Of a DNA stretch of 64,000 nt, positions 2,525-61,613 are shown one piece after another. Origin of the DNA: Tetradesmus obliquus (taxonomy: Eukaryota; Chlorophyta; Chlorophyceae; Sphaeropleales; Scenedesmaceae). The stretch covers positions 1,054,001 to 1,118,000 of the forward strand of contig CP126199.1 in assembly GCA_030272155.1 (NCBI GenBank), written 5' to 3'. Position 1 is the first letter of the stretch, and every line of letters starts with the position of its first letter. Both the position numbers and the translations under genes were made by a program. The notes beneath the pieces are model-generated. The model saw only the letters and a program-made list of their open reading frames with translations, searched no databases and was not told the DNA's origin.

Positions 2525-3577
2525 ATGATGCTGCCGGTGCGGCAGCTGTTCAGCGTGGCGTGCTGCGTCTGGCTGGTTCTCCTGGGCTGCAGGCCTGCTG
2601 CAAGCGACTCAACACCAGCTCGACATTCTGATGGCAGCTGTGATGTTTTTCCCAACTCTCACTGGGATGTGGACGTCTCCTCCCTGCCTGTGCATCCCAG
2701 CTCAGCGTGAGTGCTCACCGTGCTGCGACTGTTCCGAACAGCACACCTGCAGGAACTGCGATGTGATCCGATGCCTTTGCTTCATGCACTATGGGGTTCA
2801 GAGCTGCTGCCTGCTATGTATAGCATTGAATCGTTTGAAGCGATGTACGTCAGTTTGACCTGTGCAGATCGGCATGCTGGTGTGCAGTTGCTGGTCCGGC
2901 ACACGCATGCGGGATGCTGTACAAGCACAAACACGTGCATGAGGTGTAGTTCTTGTAAGGCGTCAAAAATGCCGTTTCTCAGCAGTCTTTGGTCCAGCCA
3001 TGGCGATATAGTCAGCACAGCATGGCTGCACCAACTGCAGTACACGTGTTCTCCTCCCTTGCCCAGTGCGCTGTTGTCTTGCCTATGATGCATCTGGCCA
3101 CCTCTTTGGTGTTCACAAACCCGCACCCCACTCCCACCCTGCCAGCTGTTATAACATGCATTCATGTGTTATGTTGTGTGTTACAACAGGAGCATCATCC
3201 AGAACATCAACGATGACGACCAGGAGCGGGGCATGCACGCTGACTTTGCGGGCCACACGGGAGCTGGTGCCACCACAATCTACTATGGCATACCCTTTAT
3301 GACTGGTAAGCTTGTTTGTAACACTGTTATAACCTGTTGCTGGTTTCGGCTCCACAGGCACCCCAGCAGTACTGCGCAGACGGTGACAGCAGCAGGCAGC
3401 AGCTGCTGTCATGCTTGCAACTTGCCAAATTCAATGCCGAAGTGCTGGTTACAGCTCAGTCTGCCCATTTGTGATATGAACGCCCTCCAGGCAGCAGTAC
3501 CGGCCATTTGCAACAACTTGCTGAAAACAATCAATTTACTAATATACCCTGCAGTTGCCGTATTGCCTGATGTCCGC

Positions 3578-3619
<42 letters not shown>

Positions 3620-3946
3620 AGTGGACAGTTCTGCAAGTGGAGCAAGCTTCTCCCCTGGGCCTACTGACTTCTACATGTACAAGTCGGAGTCTGACACCTC
3701 AGCAGGTATGGTGCAACATGACATTCTGCTGAAACCAGCACCGCATGCTGCTGCTGCACATGCTGCCCAGGCTGGGCAGCACATGCGCATTTGGCTAGTT
3801 TTTCTGCAGTTCATATGAAAATGCATCAAACCATGGGCAAGATACGCCGCTGGGCAAAAACGCTGAACCAACAATGCTATTTCGGCTGTTGCTGCTTGCC
3901 TGGTGTTGCAGCGCTGCTGAACGAAGTGCTGATCAAACAATGCTGG

Positions 3947-3978
<32 letters not shown>

Positions 3979-6572
3979 GTGCTGTTGCTGTTGCTGCTTG
4001 CCTGCTGCTGCAGGTGTGCCACCTGGTAGTGGCAGGTACCCCTTCCCGATCAACGCCCCTGTCGAGGGCGCCTACACCGGCTGCTCTGTTGCCAGCTGCG
4101 GGGGTGACAGGCATGTGCTGGTGGTGGACAATGCCACCTGCACCTTGTACGAGGTGTGGAGGGGGGAGCCCCCTGCACACAATGCAGGTAAGCGCCGTTA
4201 TGTTTACTATACAGCTGTGCATGGCAACTTGTCACGTGCTCATTGGTTAGTCAACTTCTTCTTGTTAAACCACTCACCCTCTCCCTTTCTGCAACCCTGC
4301 AACGGCGCCCTGCATGCAGCTCCCTGGCGTGTCGCCAATGGTGCTGCATTCTCCCTGAGCAACCCTCTGCTGCCCCAACGGCCCTTGGGATGGACCAGCG
4401 CTGATGCAGCAGGCTTGCCAATCTACCCGGGACTAGTAAAAGCTTCAGAGGTTGCGGCGGGGGAAGTGAAGCATGCTATCCGCTTCACGGCGCGCTACGT
4501 GAAGGCTGCATATGAGTACCCGGCTTCCCACCTGGTGACGAACCGTGAGTGGTGTTGGCTGCTGCTGTGTGCATGAGGTGACGTGGCTGCAGCTTTGGGC
4601 TGCATGCGTGTGTTGGCGGTTTTGTGTGTGGATCTGTGCTGCTGCAGCTTGCTGCTATCATGAACGCTTGGTGCCGGCACAACCCTGTTCAGCATAAACA
4701 ACGCCCAGAGAAACGGTGCTGTTCTGGTGGCTTCCATTGCCTGAACCATAGGCATGTGACAGCATGTCAGCACCTCCAGGTGCAATTCCCCTTAGCCCAG
4801 CAAGCCAATGCACGTGTAATTGCAACATGTGTATCATGGCTTTCATTTCTTGCCGCTGTTGTGTCTCCGCTCTGCCACTTGCCATGCAGAGGGCACCACC
4901 CCCAACCGCCCATGGATGGGCATGCGAGCGCGCCTCAGCAGCAGCTTCAACTGCGACAGCACGCTGACAACACCCGAGGTGATTGCATCACCAACTGCTG
5001 ACATGCTGTAGCTGTGCATGCAGCAACTAGCCTCAACTAGCCTTGACAGCCCTTCCCGCGCAAGGCAGAAACATAGCGGAACGCAAAATAATGTAGTGTA
5101 GCAGACGCCGTGCTGCTGCAGCCAGGCCATCTTGAGCAGTATCCAGCAGCAAGCTGCTGCACACTGCAGCATGCACGCATCTGATGCACAGTGGACGATC
5201 TTGCTCGCTATGCCTCGTAACGTGTGATGCCAGTCCTGCAGTTCCATGAGAGCACTGCACTGGTTGGGTTCAGCACACAGCAGTGCCTGCATGTGCATTG
5301 TTATTATTATTATTATTATTTTTTCCACAAACCCAGCTGCCAACTGCCACCATCTCGTGTCTCCTGCTGCATGTGCTGCATGCCCCGCCGCCAGGCCAAA
5401 GTAATCTGCACAGCCATGAAGCGCTACGGAGTGATCCTGGCTGATGTCGGCTCCCCCTGGTGAGTACAGCTGGCTAGTCTGCTGCTGTTTCTTTGGGACG
5501 TGGCTTGCGGCGCGTTTGTGTTTCAGTGTGCGTCACTATGCTTGGGTGCAACGCACGCTGCACCAGCTGGTCCGAGGAAGGTGTCTGCTGTCAGCAGCAT
5601 CACGTACTGGCTCTGGATTCAATCCACAATGGTGGCACATCTCTGTTCCAGCCCCAGCTAACATCTACGCACATCCTGTAAAGTGAACAAAGTGCATGCT
5701 TACGCGTATGCAGCGAGCTCACTTACTAGCTGACATGGCCTGCGCCTGCCAATGCTCACAGGTACCTCATGGGCGAGGCGACTGCTGCCTGGGAGTCCCT
5801 GCTACACATGCTGACACTGCTACATCTAGTTGACATAGTCCCTGCTACATTACATTACATTACATTACAAGCTCCACTCAACGAGGAGTGGGAACCCCAG
5901 TCAGGAGCCAACGAGAGGCTCATAGGGGGAGGAAACATCGAAGAAAAACTCATCATCATCCCAACCGTCAGAAGAGATCGCAGAAAAAAACTCATCAGCA
6001 TCATCAATAACTTGAGCAATAGCCAGACAGGACAGAAGGATACACCTGCTACACCGGATACACCTGCTACACCTACTATTCTGCTGCGCCTGCTACGCCT
6101 GCCCGCAGGTACCTCACGGGCGAGGCATCTGCTGCCTGGGAGTCTCTGCTACACCTGCTACACCTGCTGATACTGCCACATCTAGTCCCTGCTACACCTG
6201 CTGACACTGCTACATCTGCTGCACCTTCTCTGCCTGCCCGCAGGTACCTCACAGGCGAGGCGACTGCTGCCTGGGAGTCTCTGCTGGGCAGCCGGCTTGG
6301 CCAGTTTCACAGTGATATCGTCAAGATGCAGGGAAAATATATGGAGGTTGTCATGCCGCCAGGTAAGGCCTGCCAAGGTTGTGGTATACCTGTTACAAGT
6401 GTTGCAGTGTGTTTCCTGTGGAGGGCGCGCTGTCCTGCTGCAGGTGCCAGGTGTTTCGGCGTGTATGCAAACCTCAGACAAGCTGCTCATATTGCTGCTT
6501 TATGCAAAACAATGCTGTTGTCTGTGCAGCTGCTGCTCTCTCAGGTTGAACACTTATTCGTTATGTTGCTGC

Positions 6573-6611
<39 letters not shown>

Positions 6612-9600
6612 ACCCTGCAGGCCACTGCCTCTGCACGCAGCCCGACTGCAAGAACTCGCAGGGAACGCCAATGTGTGCATCCCCCAAGCTGCCTTCAGAG
6701 TACCCTCCCCCGCCCTCCCCACCTCCCGCATCATCACCCGGGCCTGACCCTGCCCAACCACCTGCAGTGAGGCAACTCGACGGCAGCTGTGCTGTGCTGC
6801 CTGGCAGTCACTTCACGATGGATGTGTCAGGGCTGCCGCTGCATCCTGACAGCAGGTGAGCGTGTGTGAATGGTTTTGGTGCAAGGGTTTTGGCTCATGT
6901 TTGACCGCATGCTCAGCCGCCCACAGTGCGGCAGCCTGACGGCAGCTGTGCTGTGCTGCCTGGCAGTGCCTTCTCAATGAATGTGTCAGCGCTGCCGCTG
7001 CACCCTGACAGCAGGTGAGCGTGTGAGGAGGGTTTTGGTGCAAGGGGTTTGGCTCATGTTTGACCGTGTGCTCAGCCACCTGCACTGCGGCAGCCTGACG
7101 GCAGCTGTGCTGTGCTGCTTTGGCAGTGCCTATGCAATGGATGAGTCAGCGCTGCCGCTGCACCCGGACAGTAGGTTAGCATGTGGAGGGTGGTTTTGGT
7201 GCAAGTTTGACTCCTGTTTGACCGCACTCTGGTCTGCAAACACAACTCATGTTTGACCGCATGCCGGTTTGCCAGCAGCGGTGTGTGCATGTGCAGGTGA
7301 TAAGAAAGCAGGCTGGTTGCATCAGCTAGCAGTGCTTGCTGTAAAATCGGTGGGCTGCATGTTCTGCATGATTTGCAGCAGCAGCGCGTCATGCTAACAC
7401 GTCACCACTCAGTGCAACTGTTGCGGCCACTACAATCACTGCTGCGTCACATCCGTGCTCTGCAAACACCCACCTGCCATGTGTCTTTGCAGCAGCAACA
7501 TCGTGGCGTTCATCAGCGAGGTTCACACAGCCATGGGCGTGCACTGATGTCACTGCTGCTGCACATCCAGCTGCCGCAATCCCTAATCAATTGCTTGCTG
7601 ACGATTTCTGTATGTGCAGCAACATCGTTGCATATATCAGCGAAGGACACACCGCAATGGGCATGCACCCTGACTTTGCTGCTGCACATCCAGCTGCAGC
7701 AAACCCTAATCAGTTGCTTTCATGACGAATTCTGTGTGTGCAGCAACATCGTCGCGTACATCAGCGAGGGAAACACCGCCATGGGCATGCATGCTGACTT
7801 TGCCGGTCATGATGGCCCTGTCAACACCAACACCATCTACTACGGTGAGGGCAGGAGGCTGTAGCGCATGCATGGCTTGACAAGGGCATTCAGCTGTGCG
7901 TATTCAAGGATCGGAGCTAGTGCCTCTTCTAATTAGAGCATTTGGGGATGCATGTACCATCAATCTGCTGCTGCGCTTGCGTGCTGTCCTTCTGCCCACA
8001 CAGCGCTCAGCGCTCGCAAGTGCATATGCAACTGGTCTGGTCGTCAAGCATACTTAATCATAGCAGAGACAGGTCAGCACGGCGACGCAGGTAGCTCCAA
8101 TTGCACATGTGGCGTATTGATTCAAGATCTAGCAATCGGCCCGCTGCTTCGCTGGCATCCCCTTCCTTACTGTGGACTCCCTCCCCTCCAAGCAGCAGGC
8201 CTTCAACACATAACACGTTACTAACACTAGCTGTTGTGTTCTTTTTCCTGTCAGGCATTCCCTTCTCCACTGTCGACTCCCGCCCCTCCAAGCAGCAGGC
8301 TTTCAACACATAACATGTTACTAAAACTAGCTGTTATGTTCTTCTTTTTCCTCACAGGCATTCCCTTCCTGACTGTGGACTCCCGCCCCTCCAAGCAGCA
8401 GGCCTGCAACACATAACATGTTACTAAAACTATGTGTCATGGTCTTCTTTTTTCTCACAGGCATTCCCTTCCTGACTGTGGACTCCCGCCCCTCCAAGCA
8501 GCTGGCCTTCAACACATAACATGTTACTAGCACTAGCTGCTATGTTATTTTTCCTCACAGGCATCCCCTTCCTGACTGTGGACTCCTGCCCCTCCAAGCA
8601 GCTGGCCTTCAACACATAACATGTTACTAGCACTAGCTGCTATGTTATTTTTCCTCACAGGCATTCCCTTCCTGACTGTGGACTCCCGCCCCTCCAAGCA
8701 GCAGGCCTTCAACCCGGGCCCAACCGACTTCTACCTGTACCCCAGCGAGTCAGACCTGACGTCAGGTGCGGCTGCTGCCTGTAAAGGGCAACCGCCCAGC
8801 TTTGTTATGTGATTCGTGTGTGATTTGTGTGTGGTTTTGCCTTAAAGGCAGCTTGAAAGCAGCCAGGTGTGATAATCATTTTACCATCCTAAACATGCAA
8901 TTGCTGGCCCTGCACAAGGCCTGCGCTGTGGGTGCAGCATGCACAATGAGAGATGAGATTGGAATCTTTGAAATGCACCTCGGAAACTTTGAAATTTATT
9001 TCACTGCACAATCCTTCTGTATCACACACTGCAGGTGTGCCAGCTGGCAGCGGCCGCTACCCTTTCCCTGCTGATGCAACCATCGAGGGAGCTTACCCAG
9101 GCTGCACCATGACAGACTGCGATACAGACCGCCATGTGTTGGTGGTGGACAACTTCACATGCACGCTTTATGAGGCTTGGAGATGCCAGGCACCTGCCAA
9201 CGAGCTGGGTGAGTAGCAGCAGCAGCAACGCAGGATGATTCACATTGTGATGTATCGTGTTAGTGGTTGACAATTTCACCTGCACACTGTCTGAGGCATG
9301 GCGGTGCCAGGCACCTGCCAACGAGCTGGGTGAGTAGCAGAAATTTTCTGCAACGAAGGATCTTTTACATTGTGATGTAACGTGTTGGTGGTGGACAACT
9401 TCACCTGCACACTGTCTGAGGCCTAAAGATGCCAGGCCCCTGCCAATGAGCTGGGTGAGTAGCAGCAGCGCAGGCACTTTGTTAGTTCAATAGTTTGACG
9501 TAACGTGTTGGTGGTGGACAACTTCACCTGCACCCTTTATGAGGCTTGGAGGCACCTGCCAACGAGCTGGGTGAGTAGCAGCAGCAGCAGGTGTGCACAG

Positions 9601-12600
9601 GCGTTGCTGCTTGACACGTACTATTGCAATGTATTAAGTGCGCACTCATTTTGGCTGCATCAGGCGCAAGGCGTCGCTCCAGTATGTTGCTGTCTGGGGT
9701 GTGTGCTACTGCCACAAACCCTGCACCAGCATGTGTCAAGCACTCCACGTTTCTGCTGAGCGGGTAGATGCACTCTCAATCAGTACAGTTGGCTGACTGC
9801 CAGTTTGTTCCTGCCTGCCTGCTCTGCTGCTGAATGCTGGTCACACGTCATCAAATCCGGTCAACGCAGCCCCCTGGTCCTGCGCAAACGGCGCAGCCTT
9901 CAACCTGTCAGATCCTCTGCTGCCGCAGCGCCCCATTGGCTGGACCAGCGCTGACGCTGCAGGTACGCTGCATGCGCATTTCTCTTGTCGGCACTTGCCA
10001 GGTTCATTTGCACAGACTCGTGCTCACAGCATCCTTGCTTTGACTTTTACTGCAAGCACCCCTCACGCAGTATTCAGCATCACACAAGACTTAGCTATGC
10101 TGCCGCTGCCGCCGCTGCTGCTGCTGCTGCTGTTGCTGCAGGGCTGCCCATCTACCCCGGCCTTGTCAGAGTTGATGAGGTGGCAGCGGGGGAAGTCAAG
10201 CACGCCATACGCTTCACCAGCAGGCGCATCAGGGACGCCTACGCGTGGCCTGCCTCGCACCTCATCACCGGCCGTGAGCACAAGGCTGCTGCTGCTGCTG
10301 CTGCTGCCGCTCCTGCTGCTGTGATCCATGGGAACCTTTGCAATGAGACGTTTGCTGCCTCTCGTCACTGGTTGGTTGTCGCGCTGCTACAACACATCAA
10401 CATATGCAGCCAAATTTACAGAATTGTGTATGTACATGCCAAGTACCGTGTGCGTGTTGTGTGTGTGCTGTGTTGTGTGTGCTGCAGAGGGCGGTGTGGG
10501 GCCGTACCGGTCTTGGATGGGGCTGCGTGCCCGGCTGTCAGCCGCCTTCAAGTGCAGCAACCTGTACACCAAGGAGGTAAGCAAGCCGAGCACATGCATA
10601 CTTGTCAGTTGTAATGCAAGTATGCGCAGCTGCGGGGACAGGAGAGGCGGTGGCTGGTAATAACAGCCGTCCCCTGCCTGCAGCAGCTTCCACCATATCT
10701 GTGGGCCTAGCCTCCTGCAGGCCATGTGCTGTGCAACCACACACCTTGTGTGTACGGCGGGCTCTGCACGTGTGAGGAGTGCAAACTGAACCGATTCATG
10801 CAGCGCATTCAGCTGCACATGCAGCAGCATACAACTGGCGCAGCAGGCGGCTCTCACACATGCTCGCTTGCACCAACACATAACGCATTACAATCTTCGT
10901 CTGTGAAATCCACTTTCTTCGCATATGCAGGCTCAAGTAATCTGCCGGGCCATGTAGAAGTACGGCCTTACCTTGGCTGATGCGGGGCGGCCGTGGTTCC
11001 TCACACACTCGTGCTCATGTGTGCATCACACTTTGTCTAAACCCCTCACTAAAACCTCCCCACGCAGTCCCAGGTGGTGTGCAGGGCTATGCAGTGGTAT
11101 GGCCTCATCCTGACCAAACATATCACGCTCCAATGCCCTAACCGCCACACGCAGGCTCAAGTAATCTGCCGGGCTATGCAGAAGTACGGCCTCATCTTGG
11201 CTGATGCGGGCCGGCCGTGGTTCCTCACAGGGGAGGCCTCTCCAGGCTGGGAGGCGCTGCTGGGGGCAAACCTGGCTGCTTTCAGAAATGACATCAGCAG
11301 CATCACAGCCGCAAACATGGAGGTGGTGACAGCACCAGGTGAGCTCTTCTTGCTAAACACACCAATAAGTATGCATTTGTGAACTGCTGTGAGTGTGTGG
11401 GGTGGGCTGCATGTGTCGTTGATTTTTAATACAACTCGTGGCCTCAGGCCTCTCCAGGCTGGGAGGCGCTGCTGGGGGCAGACCCGGCTGCTTTCAGAAA
11501 TGACATCAGCAGCATCACAGCCGCAAACATGGAGGTGGTGACACCACCAGGTGAGCTCTTCTTGCTAAACACACCAATAAGTATGCATTTGCGAACTGCT
11601 GTGAGTGTGTGGGGTGGGCTGCACGTGGAGTTGATTTTTGGTTGCAGCCAGTGGCCTTGCGCCTCTCCTGGCTGGGAGGTGCTGCTGGGGGCAGACCTGG
11701 CTGCTTTCAGAAATGACATCAGCAGCATCATAGCGGCTAACATGGAGGTGGTGACGCCACCAGGTGGGCTGCGGGCACGCGGTGATTATGGTAGATAGTT
11801 GTTTATGTATGCTATGTAGTGGCGATGCCATAACATGGCAACAAACGTGTTTGCACAACTCTGATAACATATCTCCCGCCTGCACTTCGAAAATTGCACA
11901 GGTCACTGCCTGTGCACCATTGCCGAGTGCTTGAATGACGATGGCACCGTGCAGTGCCTGCCAGCTGAGGTCCCTGGCACACAGCACAGCACCCCACAAG
12001 GCAATCGGCTAGTGGTGCAGACAGGCCGCAGCATCCCGCGCCTGGATGGCAGCACAAACCCCGCTTACAACGGCACGATTGATGCCGGCATAACAACGCA
12101 GTACAGTGCTGCGTGGAACAACTACCAGGTATGATGGCTGTGCGGACAGCAGCTGTATGTAGGAGCAGTTGCAGCAGTGTTGCGTGGTTGTGCCTTGGTG
12201 CCGCAATAAGACAGCGTGCAGTAGAGACAGGTAGCGTGCATTTTCACCACGGCAACGCTGCAGTTACTGCTATTGCCACTCACTCTACCTGTGAGCCCAA
12301 TATACGGCAAGTCAGCACGCCGCTCCACACACCCTCCGGCACCACAGGCTGCCGTGCGTGTGCCACGATGCCTCATGCAGCATGTTGCCTTTGTTGTGCT
12401 TGTTGCTTGCGCTGCCAACCTATTTTCATTGCTGCGGGGAGTCACCTACTTCTGGGGCACTCCTGAGCTGCCAGTGTCATGTTATGGTGTGCGTGTGGCA
12501 CAAAGCAACATGCATGCTGCTTGTTGGCTTGCTCTGCACCCTCGTTGCTGCAGGGTGTCACCTACTATTGGGGCACTCCTGAGCTGCCAGTGTCAGATGA

Positions 12601-15600
12601 CACCGGCAGTGCACACGAGTCCTTCCGGGTGCTGCTGCGCTTTGAGAAGCTCTTCCAGTTCCTGCCGGCAGCCGCCACAATCAACCAGGCGAGCCTCAAC
12701 CTCACATTTATCAACTGGGGCCCAGGCACATACACCCTGGAGGTGAGCCTGCTGTAGCGTTACATTGACACCCAGCTTATGTAACGTACTCCACTCAGCC
12801 AAGGAGTGGGAACCACAATCAAAAGCTCGTACAAGGAGAGCCGCATATATGGGAGCAGGGGTATCAACCGTAAAGTGACAGCTTCATTGCATCAGCTGCA
12901 TGGCCTGGTCAAGCTGTGTGGTGTGTTGCTGTGAAGCTCGTTGGACTACTCGGTGCCAGAAGTGTGGTGCAAAACGAGCCTCAACCTCACATTCATCAAC
13001 TGGGGTCCAGGCACACACACCCTGGAGGTGAGCCTGCTGTAGTGTTTCACTATGTTATGTTATTACGTTACATTGAAACCCAGCTTTTGTAACGTAATCC
13101 ACTCAGCCAAGGAGTGGGAACCACAATCGGGAGCTTGAACAATGACAGGCTGATATGGGAGCAGGTGTAGCAACTGTACAGTGACAGCTTCATTGCATCA
13201 GCTGCATGGCCTGGTCAAGCTGTGTGGTGTGCTGCTGTGAAGCTCTTTGGGCTGCTGGCGCCAGAAGTGTGATGCAAAGCGAGCCTCAACCTCACATTCA
13301 TCAACTGGGGTCCAGGCACGCACACCCTGGAGGGGAGCCTGCTCTGGGAGCGGTAAAAGTGGCAGTGTCATTGCATCAGCTGCATGGACTGGTCATGCCA
13401 GCATGCAGCGCTTTGGACTATCACGCCACAAGTGTGATCCAAAGCAACGCCCTGACGTGTAATGCGACTCATTTCTCGTGCAATGCGCTGCGGTGCAGGT
13501 GTGTGCCCTGACTAAGCCGTGGGTTGCAACGCCGCCTGCAGTCAGCTACGCAGGTCTAGGCTGGCAGAAGACAGGCGCATGGTGAGCGCCACATCCATTG
13601 ACACCAGCATCCAGCAGCATGCATGTGCTTGTGTGGCTTGTTTTGATTCATTTTTTCCCATCCATTTACTTGTGCCTGGCTGCACACTCAGTGACTAGAT
13701 GAGCTTACGCGCTGCTGCTTTGGCTCACATCCTGATGCAGCATGCACCAGCAATGCAGGCGCTGCCAAGCTGCTTGTTTTTGCACTTTTGTGCACTCGTG
13801 CCTCAGGACTGCTGCTTGGAGCCAGCCAGGCGGCTGGGCTGAAGCTAAACTGACATTATGTTGAGCCGGGATAGTTACATGTGGGTCCTGGCACCTCTCA
13901 GATGGTATGATCCACAACAGGTTGAAAAACCAGGTCTGAGACCAGAGAAACGGAGAGTGAGATAATAGAACATATGTAAATATTCACAATCGTACGTGTG
14001 CACGCCTGTGCCGCAGGGCTGCTGCTTGGAGCCAGCCAGGCGGCTGGGCTGACTGCAGCACTGCTTGGAGCGTGCCAGTGCCCCCAGGCCACCCCCAGTC
14101 AGGCTACATCCAGGTTGCCCTGCCACTGCCTGCCTCTGTGCTGCTGGGCTGGGTGGCGAACAATGGGGCGAACAACTTTGGTGTGCTGATGCGGTGAGCG
14201 GGGCAAGGCGGCGGTGGTGCTGTGCTGCTCTGCCGCAAGGACTTTTGGTGGCCTCACATTGCTTGCTTGTCTTGCCTCTGTACTGCTTGGGTGGGTGGCA
14301 AACAATGCAGCAAGCAACTATGGCGTGCTGATGCGGTGAGTGGAGCAGGCCGCAATGGTATGTTGCTGCTTTGCCGCATGAACTGTTGGTGGTGGATTCA
14401 AAACTGCTTGCATGTCTTGCCTCTGTGCTGCTTGGGTGGGTGGCGAACAATGGGGCGAGCAACTTTGGTGTGCTGATGCGGCGAGTGGGGCAGGCCGCAG
14501 CTGGTCCCATCTGCTGTGCACGTGGACTGTATGTGGCCTCAGATCGCTTGCTTGTCTTGCCTCTGTGCGCTTATGCGGTTAGTGGGGGGATGCAGAGCCA
14601 CATCTGTTTCGCCGCAATGCCAGAATGCCAGGATTGTGTGCTGGGGGGCGCATGCTTGCAGCGCCTGAAGCTTGATAAGTCTTTGGTCGCGTTGGTGTGC
14701 TTAAACGTCTTGTCTCGGAAAAGGCTGTCTTTGATATGCAGGGCGGCAGAGCATCTGCCCTGCCTACCGTCAAGCTTTGCAGTAACCATGATGTTCCACA
14801 TGCCTGCTGGTGTGCTTGCGTTCTTTGTCTTTTGCGCCATGCATCTCCCCCCAATGCAGCTCCAAATCAGGCAACATCAACCTGCGCATGAGCCAGCACA
14901 TGGCAAAGCCCACCACGCGCCCAGCCCTGGACATCTATTACGATGGCGGCGCAGGCCCTATCACATGGTCCCCAGAGCCCGACCCTAGCGCTCCTCCATC
15001 ACCTTCACCCAATGCATTCCAAGACAACTCGCCGCAGCCTCCAGCGCAGCGCCTGCCTGACGGCAGCTGTGCTGTGCTGCCTGGCAGTGCCTACCAGCTG
15101 GATGTATCCAGCTTACCGCTTCACCCATACTCTGCGTGAGTGCTTATGTATTTGATCGGATGTCATGCGCAATCTTCTGTGTACCAATGATGGCCGTGGC
15201 ATTGCTGCTACTGCATCTGTACTCTTCATGAGTGCATGTGCTTTGGTTGGTTGTCATGCGCATTTTGCTGTATGACATTGTCGGCTGTGGCATTGCTGCT
15301 ACTGCATCCGTACTCTGCGTGAGTGCATGCACTTGAGTTTTGGTTGAGCTTGGACGATTAGCCAAGCTGCGGAATGATGCCATGCTGTGTTGCTCGCAGC
15401 AGTGCTTGACTGGCATCATCCAGAACTCCAACTGCAAACTTCACCGCCTCGCCCTGGGTGCATCCTCCCCCCTCTATGCCCCAACAGACCTGCAATGCAC
15501 TTTGCAACGTGTTTGTATGTATGCAACGTGTTTGTATGTGTGCAATTGCAGGGCCCTCATCGCAAGCATCAACGACGGCAACCCCAGCCGCAGCATCCAC

Positions 15601-28211: not shown

Positions 28212-28247
<36 letters not shown>

Positions 28248-28863: not shown

Positions 28864-28899
<36 letters not shown>

Positions 28900-36300: not shown

Positions 36301-37149
36301 TAGCATGTATTTGCTGGGCGAGTCAGCTGTGTGTATAGAACACACACAGCCGTGTGATGGTGTAGGGATGTGGCGCTAGGCGTTGGTGCTTCACTGTGGC
36401 TGGGCCTGCAGCCCATCACATGCCTGCAGTGGAGCCCAGATGGCGGCTACCTGTTTGCAGGTGGGCTTGATTAGATAGGCAGCAGATGAAGGTGGCTGGT
36501 GTGTGTTGCATGTAGAGCTGCAGCATGCGATGTGACAGCCCAGTGGCAAGCCCCTGTAGTACAGTGCATTGATGTTGGCCGGCAAATCAGCGTGTTTGTA
36601 TAGACCACAGCCGTGTGATGGTGTGGGATGTGGTGCTTCACTGCGGCTGGGCCTGCAGCCCATCAAATGCCTGCAGTGGAGCCCAGATGGCGGCTACCTG
36701 TTTGCAGGTGGGCTTGATTGAATAGGCAGCAGATGAAGATGGCTGCTCTGTGTTGCGTGTCGTGCTGCAGCATGCAATGTAACAGCCCAGTGGCAAGCCC
36801 CTGTGTGCATACATATTGGTGGGCAAAGCAGCGTGTGTGTATAGACCACAGCCGCGTGGTGGTGTGGGATGTGGCGCAAGCGTGCGGCTGGGCTTGCAGC
36901 CCATCACATGCCTGCAGTGGAGCCCGGATGGCGGCTACTTGTTTGCAGGTGGGTTTAGGGTTCAGGGGTTTTGGGGTTTGGGTGTAAACCATGTGCTCAT
37001 GACGCACCAATTGCACCAGAGCTTGCATGATGCAGTTGCATGAGGAAGGTGCATGTAGTGTAGTGCAGCGCATGCGCTGTGATGCGGGGGTCGACACCTG
37101 GCTTGGTGGCAGGTGTCCGGCTTGGCGGTGTGATTGAGCTGCTGCTGCC

Positions 37150-51700: not shown

Positions 51701-53896
51701 GTCAGCCACCGGGCAGCGCAAGTACTTCACTGTGGAGGCCTCCGAGGTGGAGCCGCTGCTCAACGAATTCATGGAGCACCTGTACGAGGTGGGCTGTTAC
51801 TTTTTCTGTTATATTGTTGTTACGTAGAAGCTACAAATTGTTCATGCTACAAATAACGGGTGGCTGGTGGCAAGTGAGCATCAGTTGGTGTGCGTTGCGT
51901 GTTTTTGTACTCCAAGTGCTATGTGTTGGTGTTGAATCATAATTCAGTATCCCACTGGCAGCATCAACCGGCTTATTATCGACCCTGCGCATGCGCCATG
52001 CGCCGCTGCTGACTGGTCGCTGCTGCTGATCACTGCTGCACGCGCTGTGCAGACACAAGGTGGCGACACCGCGAATGACGGCACAGCACAGGATGCTGGC
52101 CTAGGGGGGGCCACAGGCACTGGCAGTGTGGTGGTCGGCAGCAGTAAGAAGGGCCGCGCAGGCCGGCCTGATGTATGGCACAGGCACAATGCCATCTTTG
52201 TGGTCAACCCCAGCAAGGTGGGAGTGCAGCTGTCTGCAGTGTTAGTTGTAACATGTCACTCTGTTGTAACATGTTACATGTGTTTCTGCGTGCAGGATGC
52301 TGCCAGGCGTGCTGTATTGCTGCTTCGACGCAATTGGTGCAGCTAGTAGCTGGCGCCAGATCATGTGAGCCCATCATCATCCATCTGAGCTGTTGTGGTC
52401 ATGCTGCTGCTGCTGCTGCTGAGCAGGTGCGCATCAATCCTGAAACTGCAGCCGAGGTGGCGGCTGCGCACCACCCTCCGGACTTCATCCGCATGTGGCA
52501 GGAGTGAGTGGCATGCCCGCAATCTGTTGATCTTTGCAGCGGCTTACATCTGCAGGGGCTCCTGTAGAACGTGACTGCGAAACACCCACCTGTGTAGCTA
52601 TGCTGCATGATGTGCATCGTGTGCTTCTACCAGACAAGTGCTTGCGGCAGGGGCGTGATGCAGCACTGCTGTTGTGCTTTCAATGTGAGTGGCCTGCATG
52701 AGGTCCTGCTGCTGGCATCTGTGTTGCTGATTTGCTGTGTTGCTGTGGTGTGTGTATGTGTGGTGCAGGGGCAAGTATGAAGATGCCAAGCTCTCTGATG
52801 AGGAGGCGGGATACATCTACAGGTGATTGATCATCAACTTCAAAATCTGCTTTTATGAACCTGACACATATTCCTTATATTCTGAAGAGGAGACGGGTTA
52901 CGTTGACACCTGAAGCGCTGGCAAGGCTGCATTTGAAGGACCCTGCAAGGGGTGTTGCAAGCAAACCCGCTCTGCCAGAATATCACATTGTTGTCGTCGT
53001 CCTTTTCCAGTTGCTGTTTTACAGTTAGTGGCATGCGGTGGCACAGCTGCAAACCACCACGCTCACCTCTTATTAAACACCGCGCGGCACCTTGTGGTTG
53101 GATCTGAAAATGTCCCATCTCAACCATATCACCTGTTACTGTGCTGCTGCGCAGGTATCAGTACAATGGTGTCGGAGAAACCGCCATCTGGCACAGCAGC
53201 AAGAACTACATGGTGGTCGACCTGTCTGCTGGGCCCTCCACGTATGGGCCTCTGGTCAGCCAAGGGGGCGCTGTCACGCCGCAGGCGCTGCCATCGATAA
53301 AGGTGCGCTGGCTGTGTGCTTGCCCGAACGACAACTGGCAACTAAATGGATTAGCCAGCTACAGCAATACGATGACTTATTAGGCTGCAGTGGGTGGGTA
53401 GATCCAGCTGCGGGGCTAGGCAGACGCAGGTGGCAGCAGTGGCGGCGTGCAAGATGCCTGCCTAGATGGTGGATTTGGCTGCGGGGCCCTCCACGTATGG
53501 GCCCCTGGTCAGCCAGGGGGGCGCTGTCACGCCGCAGGCGCTGCCATCAATAAAGGTGTGGTGTGGTGCCGCAAGCAACTTTTGGCTACCAGTGCATTGG
53601 CGATCAGCTGGCCATCGGTTGTGCCAGCAGACCATATCAGCTACGCAGACACAGGCGGCAGCAAAGCAAGCAGCCTGCAATTTGCCTGCCAAGGAGCAGA
53701 GTCGGGCCTGTCACCCTCCAATCCATCTGCGTGGTGCACGCAAAGAGCTCATGCCATGTATTGCTGCTGCTGGTGCTGCTGCTGCTGACGGCATGCATGT
53801 CTATGCCCGTTATCGCACCTTGCAGGACACATACCAGCAGCTGCTGGACCAGCTCAAGGCAGTGCCCAACCAGCAGACTCTTCAGATAACCCTCTG

Positions 53897-53944
<48 letters not shown>

Positions 53945-54050
53945 CCATGCGTGTGTACACACCATCTACCTCTTGCAGGACACGTACCAGCAGCTGCTGG
54001 ATCAGCTCAAGGCAGTGCGCAACCAGCAGACTGTTCAGATAACCCTCTGC

Positions 54051-54097
<47 letters not shown>

Positions 54098-57000
54098 CCA
54101 TGCGTGTGTACACACCATCTACCTCTTGCAGGAGACGTACCAGCAGCTGCTGGACCAGCTGAAAGCTGTGCCCAACCAGCAGACTGTGCGCGAGTTTGCG
54201 CGCCAGACAGCAGAGCACGGCCTGGTGACGTTGTTAGCTGGCAGGCTGGCTGTGCTGCTGGCGGCTGGCACTAAGGCCGCATTTGTGCCTGACATGGCGA
54301 GCCAGCACATCGAGCAGGCCAAGACAGTGCTGGTGAGATGAATTGAGATGTGTGCCGGATGTGTTGCTGTCACATGTTATGTTGTTACTTTGCTGGCGGC
54401 TGGCACCAAGGCTGCTTTCGTGCCTGACATAGCCAGCCAGCACATTGAGCAGGCCAAGACAGTGCTGGTGAGCTTGTGTTGTGCTGCTGCTTGTTATTGT
54501 GTTATGTTGTGTTGTTACTTCTGCCAGCTGGCGTCAAGGCCGCGTTTGTGCCTGACATGGCGAGCCAGCATATCGAGCAGGCCAAGACAGTGCTGGTGAG
54601 CTTGTGTTGTGCTTGAGGTGTGGTGGAGATATTTCTGTGTAGTCGGTTCAAGGTGCGGTTTTGTGCGCATCCTGTCGAGCCAGCACATCCAGCATGCAAA
54701 GACAGTGCTGGTGAGATGTGTTTGGAGTTGTGGTCCTATTTTGAAGTTGAACGGTCAGCAGCCGCAGCTGCTTGTAACAATGCATCCCAGCATCACTTTG
54801 CCGGCTCTGCTGCACTGTAAGCAACTAAGCTTGACAACCTCCCAATCTTGCCATCTCTTTTGCCGCTGCAGGTGCCGCTGGTGGTGCTGAGTGACCACCC
54901 GGTGACAGCAGACGAGTCCATCGCACAAACACAAGACAACTACTGGAACATAAACGTAACTCTTGCTGCTGCTGCTGCTGCTGCTGCCGCCGCCGCTGCA
55001 GGTGCCACTAGTGGTGCTCAGTGACCACCCAGTGACAGCAGACGAGTCCATCGCGCAAACCCAGGACAACTACTGGGGCATAAACGTAACACACGTCGAA
55101 GCAGCACTAGCTCACCTCCTCAGCGAGGGCCAGGAAGGAGTCGTTATAACAACCTTCCATGAGCTTCATAAGCACAAGCAGCTGGCGGCTGCGCTACACA
55201 AAGCCACGCGTAGCCACAGCGAGAGTGTCGTGGATGTGGCTGCAGCGCGGGACTACAAGGGCACTGACATGGGCATTCACAGCCACAGCCACACCTTTAT
55301 TGACCCGGACGTGCTGATGCAGGAGATCGAGATGAGCGCCGACATGCTCACACACGGCCTCGTCAGTGAGTAGCTCGGCTACTGTTACCTGTTTGTTTTT
55401 GGATGATTTTTTATAGCACTACTTATATGGCAGCTACAGTAGAGGCTGTTTGGCGGCAGTTATGCTTGCCAGGGACTGGAAATGGAGTTTGACGGCGGCA
55501 GCAGCGTCCAAATGGCACGGTCCACACATGCATGGTGCCAGTCACTGAACATGACTGCTGTGGCTGCTGCCGCTGCTTCTGCTGCTGCTGCTGATGATGA
55601 TGATGATGCTGCCGCCGCTGCTGCTGCTGCTGCTGCTGCTGCCGCAGCTGTGGCCCACACCATGGGCAAGGAGGCTGAGCACCACATCGCGCAGCTGCGG
55701 CACGAGGGCACGCGCGTGGTGCCTGTGTTTGTGCTGGCGCTGCAGAACCACCCTGAGGACGTGGTGCTGTCCAACAGGTGCGGCTGCACATGAATAAGCA
55801 TAGACGCACACGTCCAGCACATGGTAAGCAGCTGGCATATGGTGTAGGTTCGGCATGCGCCATGCGACACAGGGGGCGTGGTGCTGTCCAACAGGTGCGG
55901 CTCACGTGCATGCACATATGAGCATGTGCTCAGCAGCTGGCCTGTGTTGCAAGGTGGATTCTGGCAACTGGCACCTTTAAAAGTGCGCAGCTGGTCAGCT
56001 GGTGGTGGCATCAACGGCTCGAAGTTCAGGCTGCGGCGCATCAGCCAAGAGCTGTTGTGTGTTTTTGACACAGGTATCACAGTTGATTGCATGCAAGCAG
56101 GCGTTTATTGCAACTTTCTAGATGTTTTCATGCTTGACTGCTGCTGCTGCTGCTGCCGGCACTTGCAGGGAGCTGATGGCTGCTGACCATGACAACGTGG
56201 TGGTGCTGCAGCTGCGACATGGCAGCAAGTGAGTGCCCAGTGATATTGTGTCCAGGCCGACATGCAGTGCTAACTTGTGTGGACACACGCAAGATCGCAT
56301 GCAGTTGCATTGGTCTTGTATGGCCTGCATCACTGTTTTGATGCATTGTGCTGTAATGCATGCTCATGTCTGTCGTCACAGTGCTGCGTCCCGGCAGGTG
56401 TGGCACGCACATACGTCCCATTGTATGCGAATACAACATGTGTGCATGTGCATGTGTGACACTGCAGGTGGGGTGGACCTGACGAGTTCTTCACGGGGCA
56501 CATGGCCAATGGGCGGCGCGTGGTGCTGGACGGCGCCAAGAGCACACGCCACGTCATCGCAGGACTGGCCCAAGCGCTGACAGGTGCGGTGGATTGGAGT
56601 TGATGTCACAGGGTTCAGGAAAGCACAGTTGCTGCTGTTGCACACGCCATGTCATTGCGGGACTGGCGCAAGCACTAACAGGTGCGGCTGGCGGCAGCAG
56701 TGATCAGGCAGTGGTGGTGCAGTCATGGTCAGGCAGCTGGACTGCTGGGCAACCATCTCTAGCCTGCATCATGCACACATGGACGCTGCATGTTGCACGG
56801 GAACGATGTTAGCTGCCTGACTACTATCAGTCAACGCGTCTGACTGCTGTAGCTGTCCTTGGGTTCAGGCCCACATCTTCTCATCGCAGTCAACTGACAT
56901 GTTACGTGTGTTACATTTGTTGTTATTTCTGCAGGCGTGACGCCGCCCTACCAGCACTTTGAGTCCTCGCTGGACAAGCTGGAGGTGGACTGGCGCTGGG

Positions 57001-58966
57001 CGGCAGGCGCGACGCCTTTCGGGCCCTACAGCAACTACGAGGGAGTCAGCGAGATCATGCAGGTCAGCAAAGTGATTATAACAACTATATATCTGATTGA
57101 TCTAGCCAGGGGCCAGCGAGATCATGCAGGTTGGATTGGTATGCACTGCCAGATGTCATCGTGGTCAGATCAGCTCAGCAAAGGTGCCTGCGTTTGGGCC
57201 CTACAGCGACTGCGAGGGAATCAGCATAGATCATGCAGGCCAGAAACAGATGAATGTATGTGCTGCCTGTTACGATTGTGGTCAGATCAGCAGGCGCAGA
57301 GTGTCTGAGGCACAAGCTGCAAGCTGCTGGCTGTCGCATCTGCACTCCTGGTCCACACGGCCTTTTAAAAGGATCACCGCGTGTACACAGCTCAACATCT
57401 TGGCGGCTATGCTTGCCGTTCAGTTGTGCGAGTAGTGGTCATGCCAGCCATCAGATTCAAAGTGCAACATACTTTTGCGAATGCTCCTGCTGCCTCTTCC
57501 CTGTTTCTGCAGAATGCGGCGCGGCGCAACGTGCTGCTGGCGCACGTGGGTGCTGCGCTGCGGCAGCTGCAGCAGCAGCTGGACGCGCTGGACGCGTTTG
57601 TTGCTCACCACTTCAAGGGGCCCTGGGCGGGAGCAGGGCTGGGAGACTCCGGGCGGCACTGGCTGGACACCGTGGCCAGGTGAGAGATGTGCCCTCACTC
57701 AGCAGGACATTTGGTGGGTGGCACGGGTGGCTAGCCGCGCGCGGTTGACCTGCAAGTCTCCGACCGGCAGTGGTTAGACACTGTGGCAAGGGTGAGCAGC
57801 AAGCTTTGTAATCTGTGAATGTTGCTCACCACTTCAAGGGGCCCTGGGCGGGACCGGGGCTAGGGGACTCGGGGCGGCACTGGCTTGACACAGTGGCCAG
57901 GTGAGGGGGGTGGTTCATGGTATGCAGACGTGTGTCGAGGCTGCTTGAGTTCGTGGCCACCTGAAGCTCTGCATTGCTGTGTCGCAGCATGGCCACATCA
58001 AACACTTGCTGCCATGCCCACACACCTCTGCCCTGCGGTGATGGCTTCAACCTGCTGTTGGTGTGCTTCACCTGTGCCATCTTTTGCTGCAGCATGCACC
58101 ACAGCTACAACAGCTGATGATACCACCATGCAACTTCCTCCCTGCACTGTGGCTTTGACCTGCTGTCAATGTGCTTCACTTGTTGCCATCTTTTGCTGCA
58201 GCACGCGGCACGGCTACAACAGCACGCTGAGCAAGGAGGTGGTGTACCAGCTGGAGTCATCACTGTCCAACATCAGCACCATGGTGGAAGAGCTGGCCAT
58301 GGACATGTTCACGGTGAGCTGCTGGGTTTTTTGTTTGTTCACAGTGAACTTCACATTGTTGATTTACAGGTGACATTCATGACGCAAATTGTGAGGTTCA
58401 CGGCACCGGTGGAGGAGCTGGCTATTGACATGTTCACGGTGAGCTGCTTTTTTATTTTAGTGTCCACAGCGAGGTTCTTGTGATAGTGTCCTCTTACAGG
58501 ATGACTGGTAACTTGCAGCTGGCGAGGAGCACAGCAGTTCGCATGTAAACAGCTGGCCATGGACTAAAATCAGGTAAGCCGCACCAGATTGTTCTGACGG
58601 TTCTTATCGCGCTGCTGCTGCTGCTGCTGCCGCCGCTTTGTTTGTTCACAGCACGACTTCAAGGCTGCGGACGACATCGTAGGCAACCGGCTGCTGCCAG
58701 CCGTCGCAGCACTGTGCACGGAGCTCGACCAGCAGCTAGACGCAGCAGAGGAGGTCATGCAGTGCTGCCACATGGGCAGCACAAACATGATTAGTCAGGC
58801 GCTGCTGACAATGCTGGCATGTGCTGGAGGGGCAGGCGTGTTCTTCACACTTGTTGGCATTGCGCTGTGTGCTCGGATGGCAAGGAGAAAGGCTGTTAAG
58901 CTGACTGGGCTTCCCACATACGGGCTGCCCATGTATTCAGGCAAGCTGGGCACGTGGTCGTTATAA
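49743..58966 (+). CDS. Single-pass membrane protein of the At5g58100/At3g28720 family
   Basis: Seventeen exons join in phase to about 901 aa: 49743-49931, 50104-50313, 51228-51309, 51706-51788, 51948-52217, 52427-52503, 52769-52822, 53155-53302, 54132-54332, 55002-55365, 55648-55777, 56169-56228, 56468-56583, 56935-57062, 57513-57679, 58202-58313, 58652-58966. A signal peptide (about 1-25) is followed by a long lumenal region with VPIEVDIILVGFSGDGGYG, VVDLSAGPSTYGPL, VPLVVLSD, RVVPVFVLAL, ATPFGPYSNYEG and NAARRNVLLAH. One membrane segment (about 848-871) precedes a basic stop-transfer CARMARRK. From memory, the DLSAGP.TYG and TPFGP motifs and the roughly 940-residue length match the plant At5g58100 (exine-related)/At3g28720 family. 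The molecular role is unknown; secretory pathway location is inferred. Confidence 0.8.
50314..50660 (+). repeat. Downstream echoes of the exon ending at 50313
   Basis: Diverging copies of the C.HVNFQVVS.EEDPE end with donor-like GTGAGC/ATGAGC occur ending near 50413 and 50549, with a remnant near 50640. CAG runs separate them. Confidence 0.8.
51388..51402 (+). repeat. Run of 15 G after a GT repeat
   Basis: GTGTGTGTG followed by 15 consecutive G in an intron; such a tract can form a G-quadruplex and is prone to length change. Confidence 0.85.
53465..53555 (+). repeat. Downstream echo of the exon ending at 53302
   Basis: A copy of the VDL.AGPSTYGPLVSQGG to LPSIK segment with donor GTGTGG lies about 253 bases after the true exon end. 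Confidence 0.88.
53826..54131 (+). repeat. Two upstream echoes of the exon at 54132 with CTG tracts
   Basis: Copies begin after CAG at about 53826 and 53979, exactly 153 apart and 153 from the true exon. Each carries DTYQQLLDQLKAV.NQQT coding sequence, then a 40-50 base CTG tract and the next acceptor. Confidence 0.9.
54333..54710 (+). repeat. Three downstream echoes of the exon ending at 54332
   Basis: Copies of the AAGTKAAFVPD.ASQHIEQAKTVL segment with GTGAG donors end at about 54467, 54595 and 54710 (periods 135, 128, 115), increasingly diverged. Confidence 0.9.
54872..55001 (+). repeat. Upstream echo of the exon at 55002
   Basis: A near-identical 89-base copy of the exon start (VPLVVLSDHPVTADESIAQ) begins at 54872, period 130, and ends in a CTG/CCG tract that forms the next acceptor. 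Confidence 0.9.
56640..56681 (+). repeat. Downstream echo of the exon ending at 56583
   Basis: A 41-base copy (THRVIAGLAQALT-type, with the codon order TRHVIAGLAQALTG) plus GTGCGG donor ends at 56681, one 98-base period after the true exon. Confidence 0.8.
57100..57242 (+). repeat. Two downstream echoes of the exon ending at 57062
   Basis: Short copies around GCCAGCGAGATCATGCAG (ending near 57129) and a longer diverged FGPYS..EGIS segment (about 57194-57239) follow the true exon. Confidence 0.7.
57755..57900 (+). repeat. Downstream echo of the exon ending at 57679
   Basis: A copy of VAHHFKGPWAG.GLGDSGRHWLDTVA with donor GTGAGG ends at 57900. A smaller one ends near 57790. Confidence 0.85.
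58397..58570 (+). repeat. Downstream echoes of the exon ending at 58313
   Basis: A copy of VEELA.DMFT with donor GTGAGC ends near 58439. A fragment (GCTGGCCATGGAC) with GTAAGC donor lies near 58551-58573. Confidence 0.75.
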
Positions 58967-59214: not shown

Positions 59215-59550
59215 CTCACCGAAGCGTTGCCCTGGGGCTGCGCCTGCTGCGTGCTGAGCACGGACCTTCAATAGTGAATATTATCAATGCTGCATACACT
59301 GGACCTTGCAGTGCCGTGCTGTTCCCGCCCTCCCGGCGGCAGCAGCAGTTTATGACACCTGCAATCACGGTTGAAACTCTAAACATTTACGGTGGCCGCC
59401 ACCGGCAGTGCCACGTGGCAGCAGCGCCAACAGCAGCCGCTTGCCGCTTCTGCAAGCAGTAGTACCGCTTGTAGTGCTCATGGGGCCCGCCATGCCACAG
59501 CAAGCCCTGACCCCTTCGCAACAACACCAGTGCTGGAAGCTTCGATGAAG

Positions 59551-59555
59551 TTACA
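59551..59555 (-). terminator. Candidate TGTAA poly(A) signal of IBA57
   Basis: TTACA on the plus strand, about 140 bases past the IBA57 stop. Confidence 0.45.
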
Positions 59556-59693
59556 CCACGAGAACCAGAGCCAACAACTGGGCTCCTGCACACAAATGGC
59601 GTTGTGCAGCCCACGCATGCCGCATTCTATCTAGTTCCAGGCTTTGCTAGCTTGCAGGAACCCGCCAGCACCACCACTATCATCAGCTGACAA

Positions 59694-61613
59694 TCAGCTG
59701 CTGGTGCTGCTGCTGCTGCCTGCTGGTGGGCCTGCCTCCTCATTGCCCCACTCCCCAGGCCACCACTCCGGCCGCTGCGGCACCACCTGCTGCACTGTCC
59801 CGCCTTCAAGCTGCACTTGCAGCTGCTGACCCTGGCCAGCTGCTGCTGCTGCTGCTGCTGCCAGCGCAGGAGCCAGCTTTATGTAGGCTATGCCCATGTC
59901 TCCACAGTGGTTGGTGAGAGTGCCGATCTGGCTACTCCTGCTGCTGCTGCTCGGCGTGCTGCCGGCGGCTGCTGCTGCTGCTGCTGCCGATGATACTATG
60001 GGCAGCGGGCACGGCAGGCCTGTTGCAGCACAGGAAGACAAACGGCAGCATAGAAGTGACGCGAATGACAGAGAGGGCGAGTACATGTAACAGCCGGTTG
60101 CAGCAGCAGGCACTGGGATGCTATGCGCTGACAGGCAGCACTTGCGTTGCCGCTGCCGCCGCCGCCGCCGCCGCCGCAGCAGCAGCAGCAGCAGCAGCGT
60201 AACTCACGCGCTGATGCATTCAGGCCTGGAAGCGCCACCGGTAGCAGCCCCTCGCGGATGGCGCCCCGCAAGTGCCTGCAGCTGTTGGTGAGTACACTAA
60301 GCAGCATACACCCTGCTGTGGCTTGATTGGTGATATGGTGATGACCATTTTGTACTCACGTGTGGAGGCATCCAGTCCAGGCAGCGCCACCGGCATGAGC
60401 CGCTTGCGAATGATGCCCCTGAAGTGTGTGTAGCTGTTGCGTTCCTGGCCGATGTAGCAGCCCTTGCTGTAGCTGATGCCTGCCAGCGCATCCAGATTAC
60501 ATTCCAGTGGGGCCACCTCGCCTGTAAGCAACAGAAGTGCAGGGCAAAGGGGCACGAAGTCTGTGAGAGCTTGTATATGTGTCTAGCTGTAGCTGATGCC
60601 TGCCAGCACATAGTGGTTGCACTCCAGCGGCGCCACCTCGCCCAGAAAGGTCAGGAAGGCAGCAGATAGCACACGTTTTAGAGCATGCAGTTGTAACGTG
60701 TGCTGCAGCTGATGCCTGTAAGTGCGTCGAGGTTGCACTCCAGCGGCGCCACCTCGCCTGCAGGGGGAAAAAGGCAGCAGACAACTTGCGATTGAGAGCA
60801 TGCAGTTGTAACATTGGCTGTAGCTGATGCCTGGCAGCGCATCGAGGTTGCACTCCAGCGGCGCCACCTCGCTTAGAGGGAAAAAGGATTGTTGGGCAAA
60901 GGGCAACAAGTCCGTGGGAGCATGCTACATAACTTTGCTGCTGCTGAAGATGCCTGCCAGCGCATCGAGGTTGCACTCCAGGGGCGCTGCCTTGCCTAGA
61001 GGAGCAAAACAGGCTAGACAGCAAGCACAGGCCAGCAGGGAGCTGGCGGCAGCGCTGAACGCATTCGGCTACAGAGCAAGCACGGGCTCTCAATGACTTG
61101 CGCGCCCCCATAGCTCAGAGACATAGACAAAACAAATCAGGCCATTCACCTGTAAGTATGTCTGTGTCCCCTTCTGCTATGAAACAGGAAAGTTACATGT
61201 GGGTCCTGGCACTTGACAACTTAACACATGCATGAGAGGGTTTTCACCTGTGGGTATGTCTGTGTCCCCTTCTGCTATGCCCAGCATGTAGCGCCAGCGC
61301 TGGAAGTGATCCTCGCTGACAATGGACATGCCGGCAGCCTGCTGCTTCCTGCTGCTGCTGCCCGCTGCTGCGGGTGGCGGCGGCAGCTGCTGCGCATCAA
61401 AGATGCCACGAAGGCCGAGCTGCGGCAGGCGCGGGTCTTGTCGCCACTGGCCTGCGGCAGGAAAAGCAGCCGGTGATAAAAGACACTTGAAATAAGGACA
61501 AGCAGAGTGTGTGTGCCGTGGTGTTGGCTGCGTGAGAGAGGCAGGCAGGCAAGCAAGCAAGTCTGCAATGAAGCCAGCAACCAAGCCAGCAAGCCAGCAA
61601 GCCAGCAAGCAAA

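Follow-up and report, generated by a model that had tools for sequence, protein, structure and literature searches.

Tandem echoes of exon edges at splice junctions in a stretch of the Tetradesmus obliquus genome

A tandem duplication that crosses an intron-exon boundary has been described for a potato gene (PMC4974935, in the part that treats this gene), and this is the closest described counterpart of the structures reported here. The genome of Tetradesmus obliquus is put at 107.7 Mb, with 57% G+C, a mean intron of 462 bp and 7.8 introns per gene (PMC5966456, in its passage on these figures). Neither "tandem" nor "intron" occurs as a word in the main text of the genome paper on S. obliquus AS-6-11 (PMC7590803). 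Among the literature matches listed, from a search with most subscription journals outside its scope, there was no genome-wide account of junction-crossing duplications. Here we analyze a stretch of 64,000 nucleotides of T. obliquus (the window: C9:1054001-1118000 of a 104.66-Mb assembly in 17 contigs; G+C 56%), in which many exons are accompanied by echoes, i.e. tandem partial copies of an exon edge together with its splice site, lying in the adjacent intron. Echoes are concentrated at exon edges, follow a fixed order relative to the exon, and appear to have exon parts younger than their intron parts.

The total sample of 314 kb consisted of the window, 200 kb of contig C1 and 10 kb each from C3, C6, C9, C12 and C15. 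Self-comparison with blastn (offset 40-600 bp, match of at least 35 bp) revealed 71 local direct-repeat pairs in the window, forming 38 clusters that cover 23.3% of its bases; no such pairs arose in five sequences simulated from an order-3 Markov model of the window. Elsewhere, 29 clusters were found in the 200 kb of C1 and 1, 5, 2, 3 and 4 in the five 10-kb stretches. Arrays are thus present on six contigs, and the possibility allowed for by an earlier sequence-only reading of this DNA, that they might be found only in the window, has not materialized. Cluster density is nevertheless about four times higher in the window than in the C1 stretch (5.9 vs 1.45 per 10 kb). Local inverted pairs number two in the window and none in the other stretches. 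Regrouping with offsets of up to 900 bp gave 83 clusters in the 314 kb; the placement test described below also used 83 clusters, with offsets of up to 600 bp. The best-pair offset is 100-160 bp in 53 of the 83 clusters and below 80 bp in none, and Tandem Repeats Finder reported 294 arrays after overlap removal, none with a period of 50-80 and one with a period of 80-90. This gap sets the array units apart from simple repeats as a size class of their own. Clusters whose best match is below 0.8 of the offset are referred to as short-match clusters (37 clusters, mostly of two copies) and are distinguished from full-unit arrays. Integer copy number was tried as a mark of fresh duplication and failed as a clean test, as non-edge arrays are mixed too (match length divided by offset 0.32 to 3.27).

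All junction and edge counts are derived from a purpose-written, self-trained (unsupervised), two-strand hidden Markov model (HMM) gene finder, which predicts 536 exons and 479 introns in the 314 kb, with a median internal exon of 110 bp and a median intron of 251 bp. The models are backed by Pfam matches to the Aladin propeller, L7Ae, cyclophilin, DUF7906 and the CAF17 C-terminal domain; no Pfam match was obtained for two of the seven queries. The models are wrong in places, such as exon edges 9144, 11182 and 60479 in the window, and the junction assignment of five clusters (21429, 54862 and 58276 in the window; 99156 and 162130 in C1) differed between two analyses.

Of 958 predicted junctions in the sample (218 in the window), some carry one of the 67 clusters that lie on a splice junction (32 in the window). 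The claim of the sequence-only reading that such arrays affect most multi-exon genes holds for the window, where all eight gene models with at least two introns have a junction cluster, but the share is lower elsewhere (12/30 in the C1 stretch and 27/50 overall). Observed placement of the 83 clusters (66 at an exon edge, 7 intronic, 6 intergenic and 4 exonic) differs sharply from that expected for random placement at the same offset outside arrays (25, 27, 19 and 11.5, respectively), although this null relies on HMM models, which can take echoes for exons. Exon edges are therefore over-represented 2.6-fold, with introns and intergenic DNA depleted. The excess is also seen for the 34 clusters with identity of at least 88% (25 at an edge vs 10.7 expected) and for full-unit arrays (32/39 vs 11.0 expected; the maximum in 2000 simulation runs was 23). 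Because neutral duplications would be expected to be commonest in introns and between genes, the excess at exon edges needs an explanation, and the depletion elsewhere means that a general excess of duplication, which had been offered as one, does not account for the pattern. Introns that touch a cluster are no longer than others in the models (median 203 vs 260), probably because the models split such introns.

The order of the echoes is equally distinctive. In 36 of the 37 short-match clusters, acceptor-bearing copies precede the exon and donor-bearing copies come after it; the sole exception, L024:210-708, resembles two whole exons. Such an order points to duplication across the junction, since free copying would not set it. 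The eight arrays named in the sequence-only reading are all present, with approximately correct coordinates and the geometry that it described; the one at 60590-61005 lies in a minus-strand IBA57/CAF17-like gene, hence its echoes are upstream in the gene sense. Its rule that one complete exon always remains also holds, as a geometric consequence of junction-spanning duplication and not as a separate rule. Judged by eye, both an acceptor and a donor could be made out in a few copies (C1:69627, L024:210) and were not evident in most of the alignments inspected.

These features are compatible with plain tandem duplication followed by decay, in which random duplications are frequent and those that cross a junction are merely tolerated. 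The order rule and the nearly exclusive direct orientation of local pairs fit this explanation, as do the older pairs with long intron matches (8 of the 13 at 70-80% identity extend at least 40 nt into the intron). It is at odds with the bias of placement toward exon edges. It would also predict matches along the entire unit in the youngest pairs, but young pairs mostly match in the exon part only: of the 29 pairs with identity of at least 90%, 22 end within 15 nt of the junction on the intron side and only two reach at least 40 nt. This is why the random breakpoints assumed in the sequence-only reading are not borne out, while its proposal of local duplication across the junction stands. We consider plain duplication and decay unlikely as an explanation.

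A second local copy was found for 80 of 819 unspliced junction probes as opposed to two of 430 spliced probes (unmasked probes only), and both positives among the latter lie inside arrays that the models wrongly split. This contrast indicates that echoes were copied from unspliced DNA, and templating by cDNA or mRNA is rejected, as there are no credible copies across exon-exon junctions. A broader version of this idea is that a copying process coupled to transcription or splicing, through R-loops or RNA- or cDNA-guided repair, deposits junction-cut exon edges in the adjacent intron. It would account for sharp exon-limited matches even at 97-100% identity, as seen in a PDH E1-alpha-like gene and at C1:116728. 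In addition to the result with spliced probes, however, echoes include unspliced splice signals and a weak homology that runs on into the intron, which makes this route very improbable. The PDH E1-alpha-like gene (C1 9638-11009) carries echoes at three of its junctions, two of which flank the same exon.

That exon is flanked by the echoes at C1:10942-11009 and 10591-10645, and PDB alignments run unbroken through it, as they do through the IBA57-like exon adjoining the array at 60463-61014; both of these conserved exons are therefore single-copy in the protein. This observation speaks against the suggestion that the arrays are an assembly artefact or a dispersed mobile element, and so do the differences at many positions between most copies within arrays and the presence of arrays on six contigs. 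Whole-genome searches with three arrays returned no full second copy: two matched their own locus only, and the third matched its own locus and, outside the repeated unit, yielded matches to an insert of ~120 bp. The searched units are gene-specific, and an origin from a mobile element or introner is rejected on this ground. Two short dispersed elements do lie within arrays, but this explanation as a whole is barely credible.

The higher the identity of a pair, the less far its match tends to run into the intron (rho -0.49, p=2e-5, n=67). All nine pairs with identity of at least 95% end no more than 15 nt into the intron, compared to 13 of the 20 pairs at 90-95% and four of the 13 at 70-80%; the total of 22/29 for pairs of at least 90% becomes 21/29 with the alternative junction assignment of five clusters. 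At C1:116728-116893, the echo is identical over 51 bp and the intron match is only four bases. The intron flanks retain weak homology (mean z 1.14, standard error (se) 0.24, n=17 for acceptors; 0.73, se 0.23, n=19 for donors), whereas exon-side control flanks show none (z -0.10 and 0.18). The 16 outer acceptors tested retain pyrimidine tracts and branch-like motifs, with a pyrimidine fraction of 0.63 in their flanks vs 0.49 at random intronic YAG. Weak intron homology together with the intron-end composition of the outer flanks suggests that the duplication is old and that its exon part has been recopied since. Arrays such as 8154-8713 start and finish with exon sequence, as re-amplification through exon homology would give.

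Once formed, echoes seem to diverge with little constraint. Splice dinucleotides are intact in 67 of 78 donor echoes and 74 of 90 acceptor echoes (141/168 in total), or in 30/41 and 68/84, respectively (98/125), when echoes used as sites by the HMM are left out. This retention is near that of neutral decay and gives no clear sign of selection against decoy splice sites, in line with the tolerance of decoys suggested in the sequence-only reading. The outermost echo site is intact in 51 of the 67 junction clusters, broken in 14 and unalignable in two. In full-unit arrays, mismatches amount to 6.5, 6.5 and 13.6% at the three codon positions and 14.2% in non-coding columns, a ratio of position 3 to positions 1-2 of 2.09 (confidence interval (CI) 1.50-2.88); 28 of the 33 arrays were scored, one having been left out for self-alignment and the others because their coding sites numbered below 24. 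In the 1472 echo codons outside predicted coding sequence, 7.6% of positions 1-2 and 15.6% of position 3 are changed; six of these codons are stops, where 10.8 would be expected at an echo rate of 7.6% and 7.1 at 5%. Both patterns are those of a roughly free copy set against a constrained exon.

An alternative is that the copies are functional, either as extra exons or as poison sites that shift the frame and lead to mRNA decay. For 33 of the 37 short-match clusters mismatches could be scored by codon position (four have too few coding sites). In 23 of these loci 52 of 97 mismatches are at position 3, a neutral-like pattern, but in ten the count is 40 of 50 (Fisher p=0.002 vs the other 23), the ten being those whose echoes the HMM itself called coding, so that the grouping is not fully independent. 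These ten coding-like echoes could be genuine additional exons and are candidates for the alternative mini-exons raised in the sequence-only reading. Among short-match clusters, offsets divisible by three are under-represented (5/37, p=0.009 in a post-hoc test), which favors function, but no such avoidance is seen in full-unit arrays (12/33) or non-edge arrays (5/13). The signals retained by outer acceptors also fit functional copies, whereas the near-neutral decay of splice dinucleotides does not, and neither do the stops, including in-frame ones found by reading in the echoes at 10927 and 9382. When echoes are kept in the predicted proteins, the Pfam score falls from 67.3 to 60.8 for Aladin and slightly, from 36.8 to 35.6, for cyclophilin, but rises from 63.6 to 74.4 for DUF7906. 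As a general explanation, function of the copies seems rather unlikely.

We propose instead that these are exon-anchored decoy arrays, in which an old junction-crossing duplication has had its exon part refreshed and has been trapped by decay of the outer site; the chances of this being correct are, in our judgement, about even. A local duplication, typically of 100-160 bp, across one junction would place an exon piece and a splice signal inside the intron. The splice site that touches the intact exon would still yield the correct mRNA, with the other sites as decoys, so the gene would survive. The intron part and the decoy exon part of the units would then drift neutrally while one copy, that in the exon, stays unchanged. 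Between exon and echo, exchange, slippage or gene conversion could continue to act on the exon part after the intron part had become unrecognizable, refreshing the echoes and sometimes re-amplifying them into arrays with exon sequence at both ends. Finally, decay of the outer, original site (already broken in 14 of the 67 junction clusters) would leave the gene dependent on the array, whose deletion would now take the sole good site with it; splice-site arrays might on this account outlast those within introns or between genes. Duplication across the junction and neutral drift of the units are supported by the sequence, and refreshing of the exon part is deduced from the identity pattern; use of the inner site and the deletion trap are steps that we infer.

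Several points weigh against this proposal. Homology of the intron flanks is weaker in pairs of at least 88% identity (z 0.70, se 0.30, n=11; 0.59, se 0.29, n=12). The negative relation between identity and extension could partly be a detection bias, as short matches are found only when near-identical, although such a bias leaves unexplained the near-absence of young full-unit pairs, which are the easiest to find. Over the 33 scored short-match loci, the ratio of position 3 to positions 1 and 2 is 3.34 (95% CI 2.43-4.71), which exceeds the limit of ~2 for purely neutral echoes because of the ten coding-like loci. In the one case with a usable paralogue, third positions also account, as judged by eye, for most changes that a single echo has to itself, and the DUF7906 score noted above points the same way. 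Mismatch clustering does not tell the array classes apart: as a mark of gene conversion it reaches significance in edge arrays, but 7 of 13 non-edge arrays show it as well, so that it is uninformative (two self-aligned arrays were included). Exchange acting equally inside introns would preserve intron-only arrays too, so that the trap is needed.

A further extension of the decoy-array proposal is a neutral ratchet, in which the inner copy becomes indispensable as the outer site decays, irremovable decoys accumulate, and a minority of them are recruited as coding exons or frame-shifting poison sites. We regard it as doubtful. If true, it would provide a general route for intron growth and the birth of new exons, with the exon as a conserved recombination anchor.

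The arrays of the window are listed in Table 1.

Table 1. Echo arrays and exon-edge copies in the window
Position	Strand	Type	Remarks
5740..6285	+	acceptor-type echoes	5' of predicted exon at 6244; 193-bp dispersed element inside at 5848-6040
6751..7226	+	three 159-bp units across exon edge	outermost predicted acceptor AG->AA
7492..7803	+	acceptor-type, 124-bp units	exon at 7744
8154..8713	+	acceptor-type array, five echoes, ~100-bp units	exon at 8661; first echo acceptor AG->TG
9136..9591	+	donor-type array, three echoes, ~121-bp units	intact exon end 9208; in-frame TAA in one echo; HMM misplaces exon end (9144) and adds false exon 9552-9570
10927..11229	+	acceptor-type echo, 94%, in-frame TAG	exon start 11155 by reading (model 11182)
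11053-11112	+	second, more diverged echo of 11155 exon	within 10927..11229 cluster
11234..11770	+	donor-type array, 212-bp units	intact exon end 11338
12397..12595	+	acceptor-type echo, 83%	exon at 12554
12689..13445	+	donor-type echoes, ~285-bp units	exon end 12742; outer donor GT->GG
13789..14052	+	acceptor-type echo, 91%	
14131..14572	+	donor-type array, 142-bp units	exon end 14193
15722..15955	+	donor-type echo, 75%	exon end 15754
17160..17480	+	acceptor-type echo, 73%, match nearly full-unit	
17979..18185	+	acceptor-type echo, 83%	
19766..19998	+	acceptor-type echo, 85%	exon at 19915; intron flank diverged yet recognizable
20034..20455	+	donor-type array, 182-bp units	exon end 20101
21429..21609	+	exon-edge duplication in two copies spaced 104 bp	predicted coding in both copies
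22473..23388	+	acceptor-type array, 235-bp units	exon at 23299; ~120-bp dispersed element in first spacer
36092..36956	+	donor-type array, ~255-bp units, Aladin-like gene	exon end 36204
44348..44719	+	donor-type array, 140-bp units, cyclophilin-like gene	exon end 44411
48548..48836	-	acceptor-type echo, 92%, minus-strand gene	
53214..53558	+	donor-type copy, 91%, DUF7906 gene	coding-like: 6 of 8 mismatches at codon position 3
53762..54187	+	acceptor-type array by reading, 156-bp units	HMM reads open frame through units
54255..54734	+	donor-type array, ~135-bp units	exon end 54332
54862..55090	+	echo of exon start, 91%	coding-like: 7 of 9 mismatches at position 3
55757..55911	+	donor-type echo, 90%	
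57018..57246	+	donor-type echo	outer donor GT->GC
57599..57905	+	donor-type copy, 92%	coding-like: 6 of 7 mismatches at position 3
58031..58223	+	acceptor-type echo, 84%	
58276..58472	+	donor-type echo by alignment, 81%	
60202..60439	-	donor-type copy, 76%, minus-strand gene	
60463..61014	-	acceptor-type array by reading, ~120-bp units	precedes IBA57/CAF17-like exon in gene sense; HMM starts this exon wrongly
61145..61279	-	donor-type echo, 95%, 37 bp	

The window also contains repeats of other kinds. The 193-bp element is present at 5848-6040 and 32934-33126, the two copies being 97% identical to each other. Among 508 candidates in the genome, 40 matches were scored, one of them the element itself and 39 with 95-98% identity. 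With a TACAT-type repeat at one end, it looks like a young element of the short interspersed nuclear element (SINE) kind. The ~120-bp insert of the 22473-23388 array (22663-22784) has 11 further genome matches (74-90%) and is a small dispersed element. Nested inverted and direct repeats of 200-400 bp at 50-1397, in a predicted intergenic region, are probably a transposon remnant, and a short interstitial run of the plant-type telomere repeat AAACCCT is found at 23604-23634. The predicted gene at 2528-24335 has more than 40 exons and is built from repeated modules; a 392-residue stitched query from it had no Pfam match. Another predicted gene, at 27507-32454, is very rich in glutamine and alanine (CAG repeats) and has its own repeats of 193-333 bp at 31572-32339 around the motif KVLGLKEGASESTSRN.

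Should the arrays prove to be genome-wide, they would constitute a natural experiment in which very many genes offer near-identical splice sites at known distances, so that splice-site choice (exon definition vs intron scanning) could be measured directly. Junction-crossing tandem duplication, in print for one potato gene, would become a common process with many loci of different ages, and the ratchet would become countable, by asking whether arrays with a broken outer site never contract. The arrays also carry a warning for annotation, as automatic gene models, including the HMM used here, mistake echoes for exons.

Among known systems, minisatellites and concerted evolution by unequal exchange share with the echoes tandem units of ~90-260 bp, copy numbers that vary between loci, and homogenization, but echoes are anchored on one edge of a constrained exon and several arrays are exon-ended on both sides. 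Tandemly duplicated mutually exclusive exons are likewise local exon copies, and ten loci here look coding-constrained; most echo copies inspected, however, are one-sided fragments with a single evident splice site. Introners, in the part of PMC9860276 that describes them, also multiply intronic sequence across a genome, but they form dispersed families, some with target duplications of 3-9 bp, whereas echoes stay close to the exon that they copy and are specific to its gene, and no unit common to several genes turned up in the searches made. In Rogers-type intron gain from an AGGT-bearing exonic duplication, as outlined in PMC4974935, exon sequence beside splice signals is duplicated and splice choice preserves the protein, as proposed here; echo units differ in carrying intron sequence and a splice site that both existed already, so that no new intron is needed. 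The potato gene, as far as its description in the same paper goes, is most similar, with a boundary-crossing tandem duplication in which the parent splice signals were copied along. It is, however, one gene, whose new intron and additional exon segment are in use, as RNA confirms, whereas the echoes form 67 clusters in 314 kb, most of them apparently unused and with exon parts that seem younger than their intron parts.

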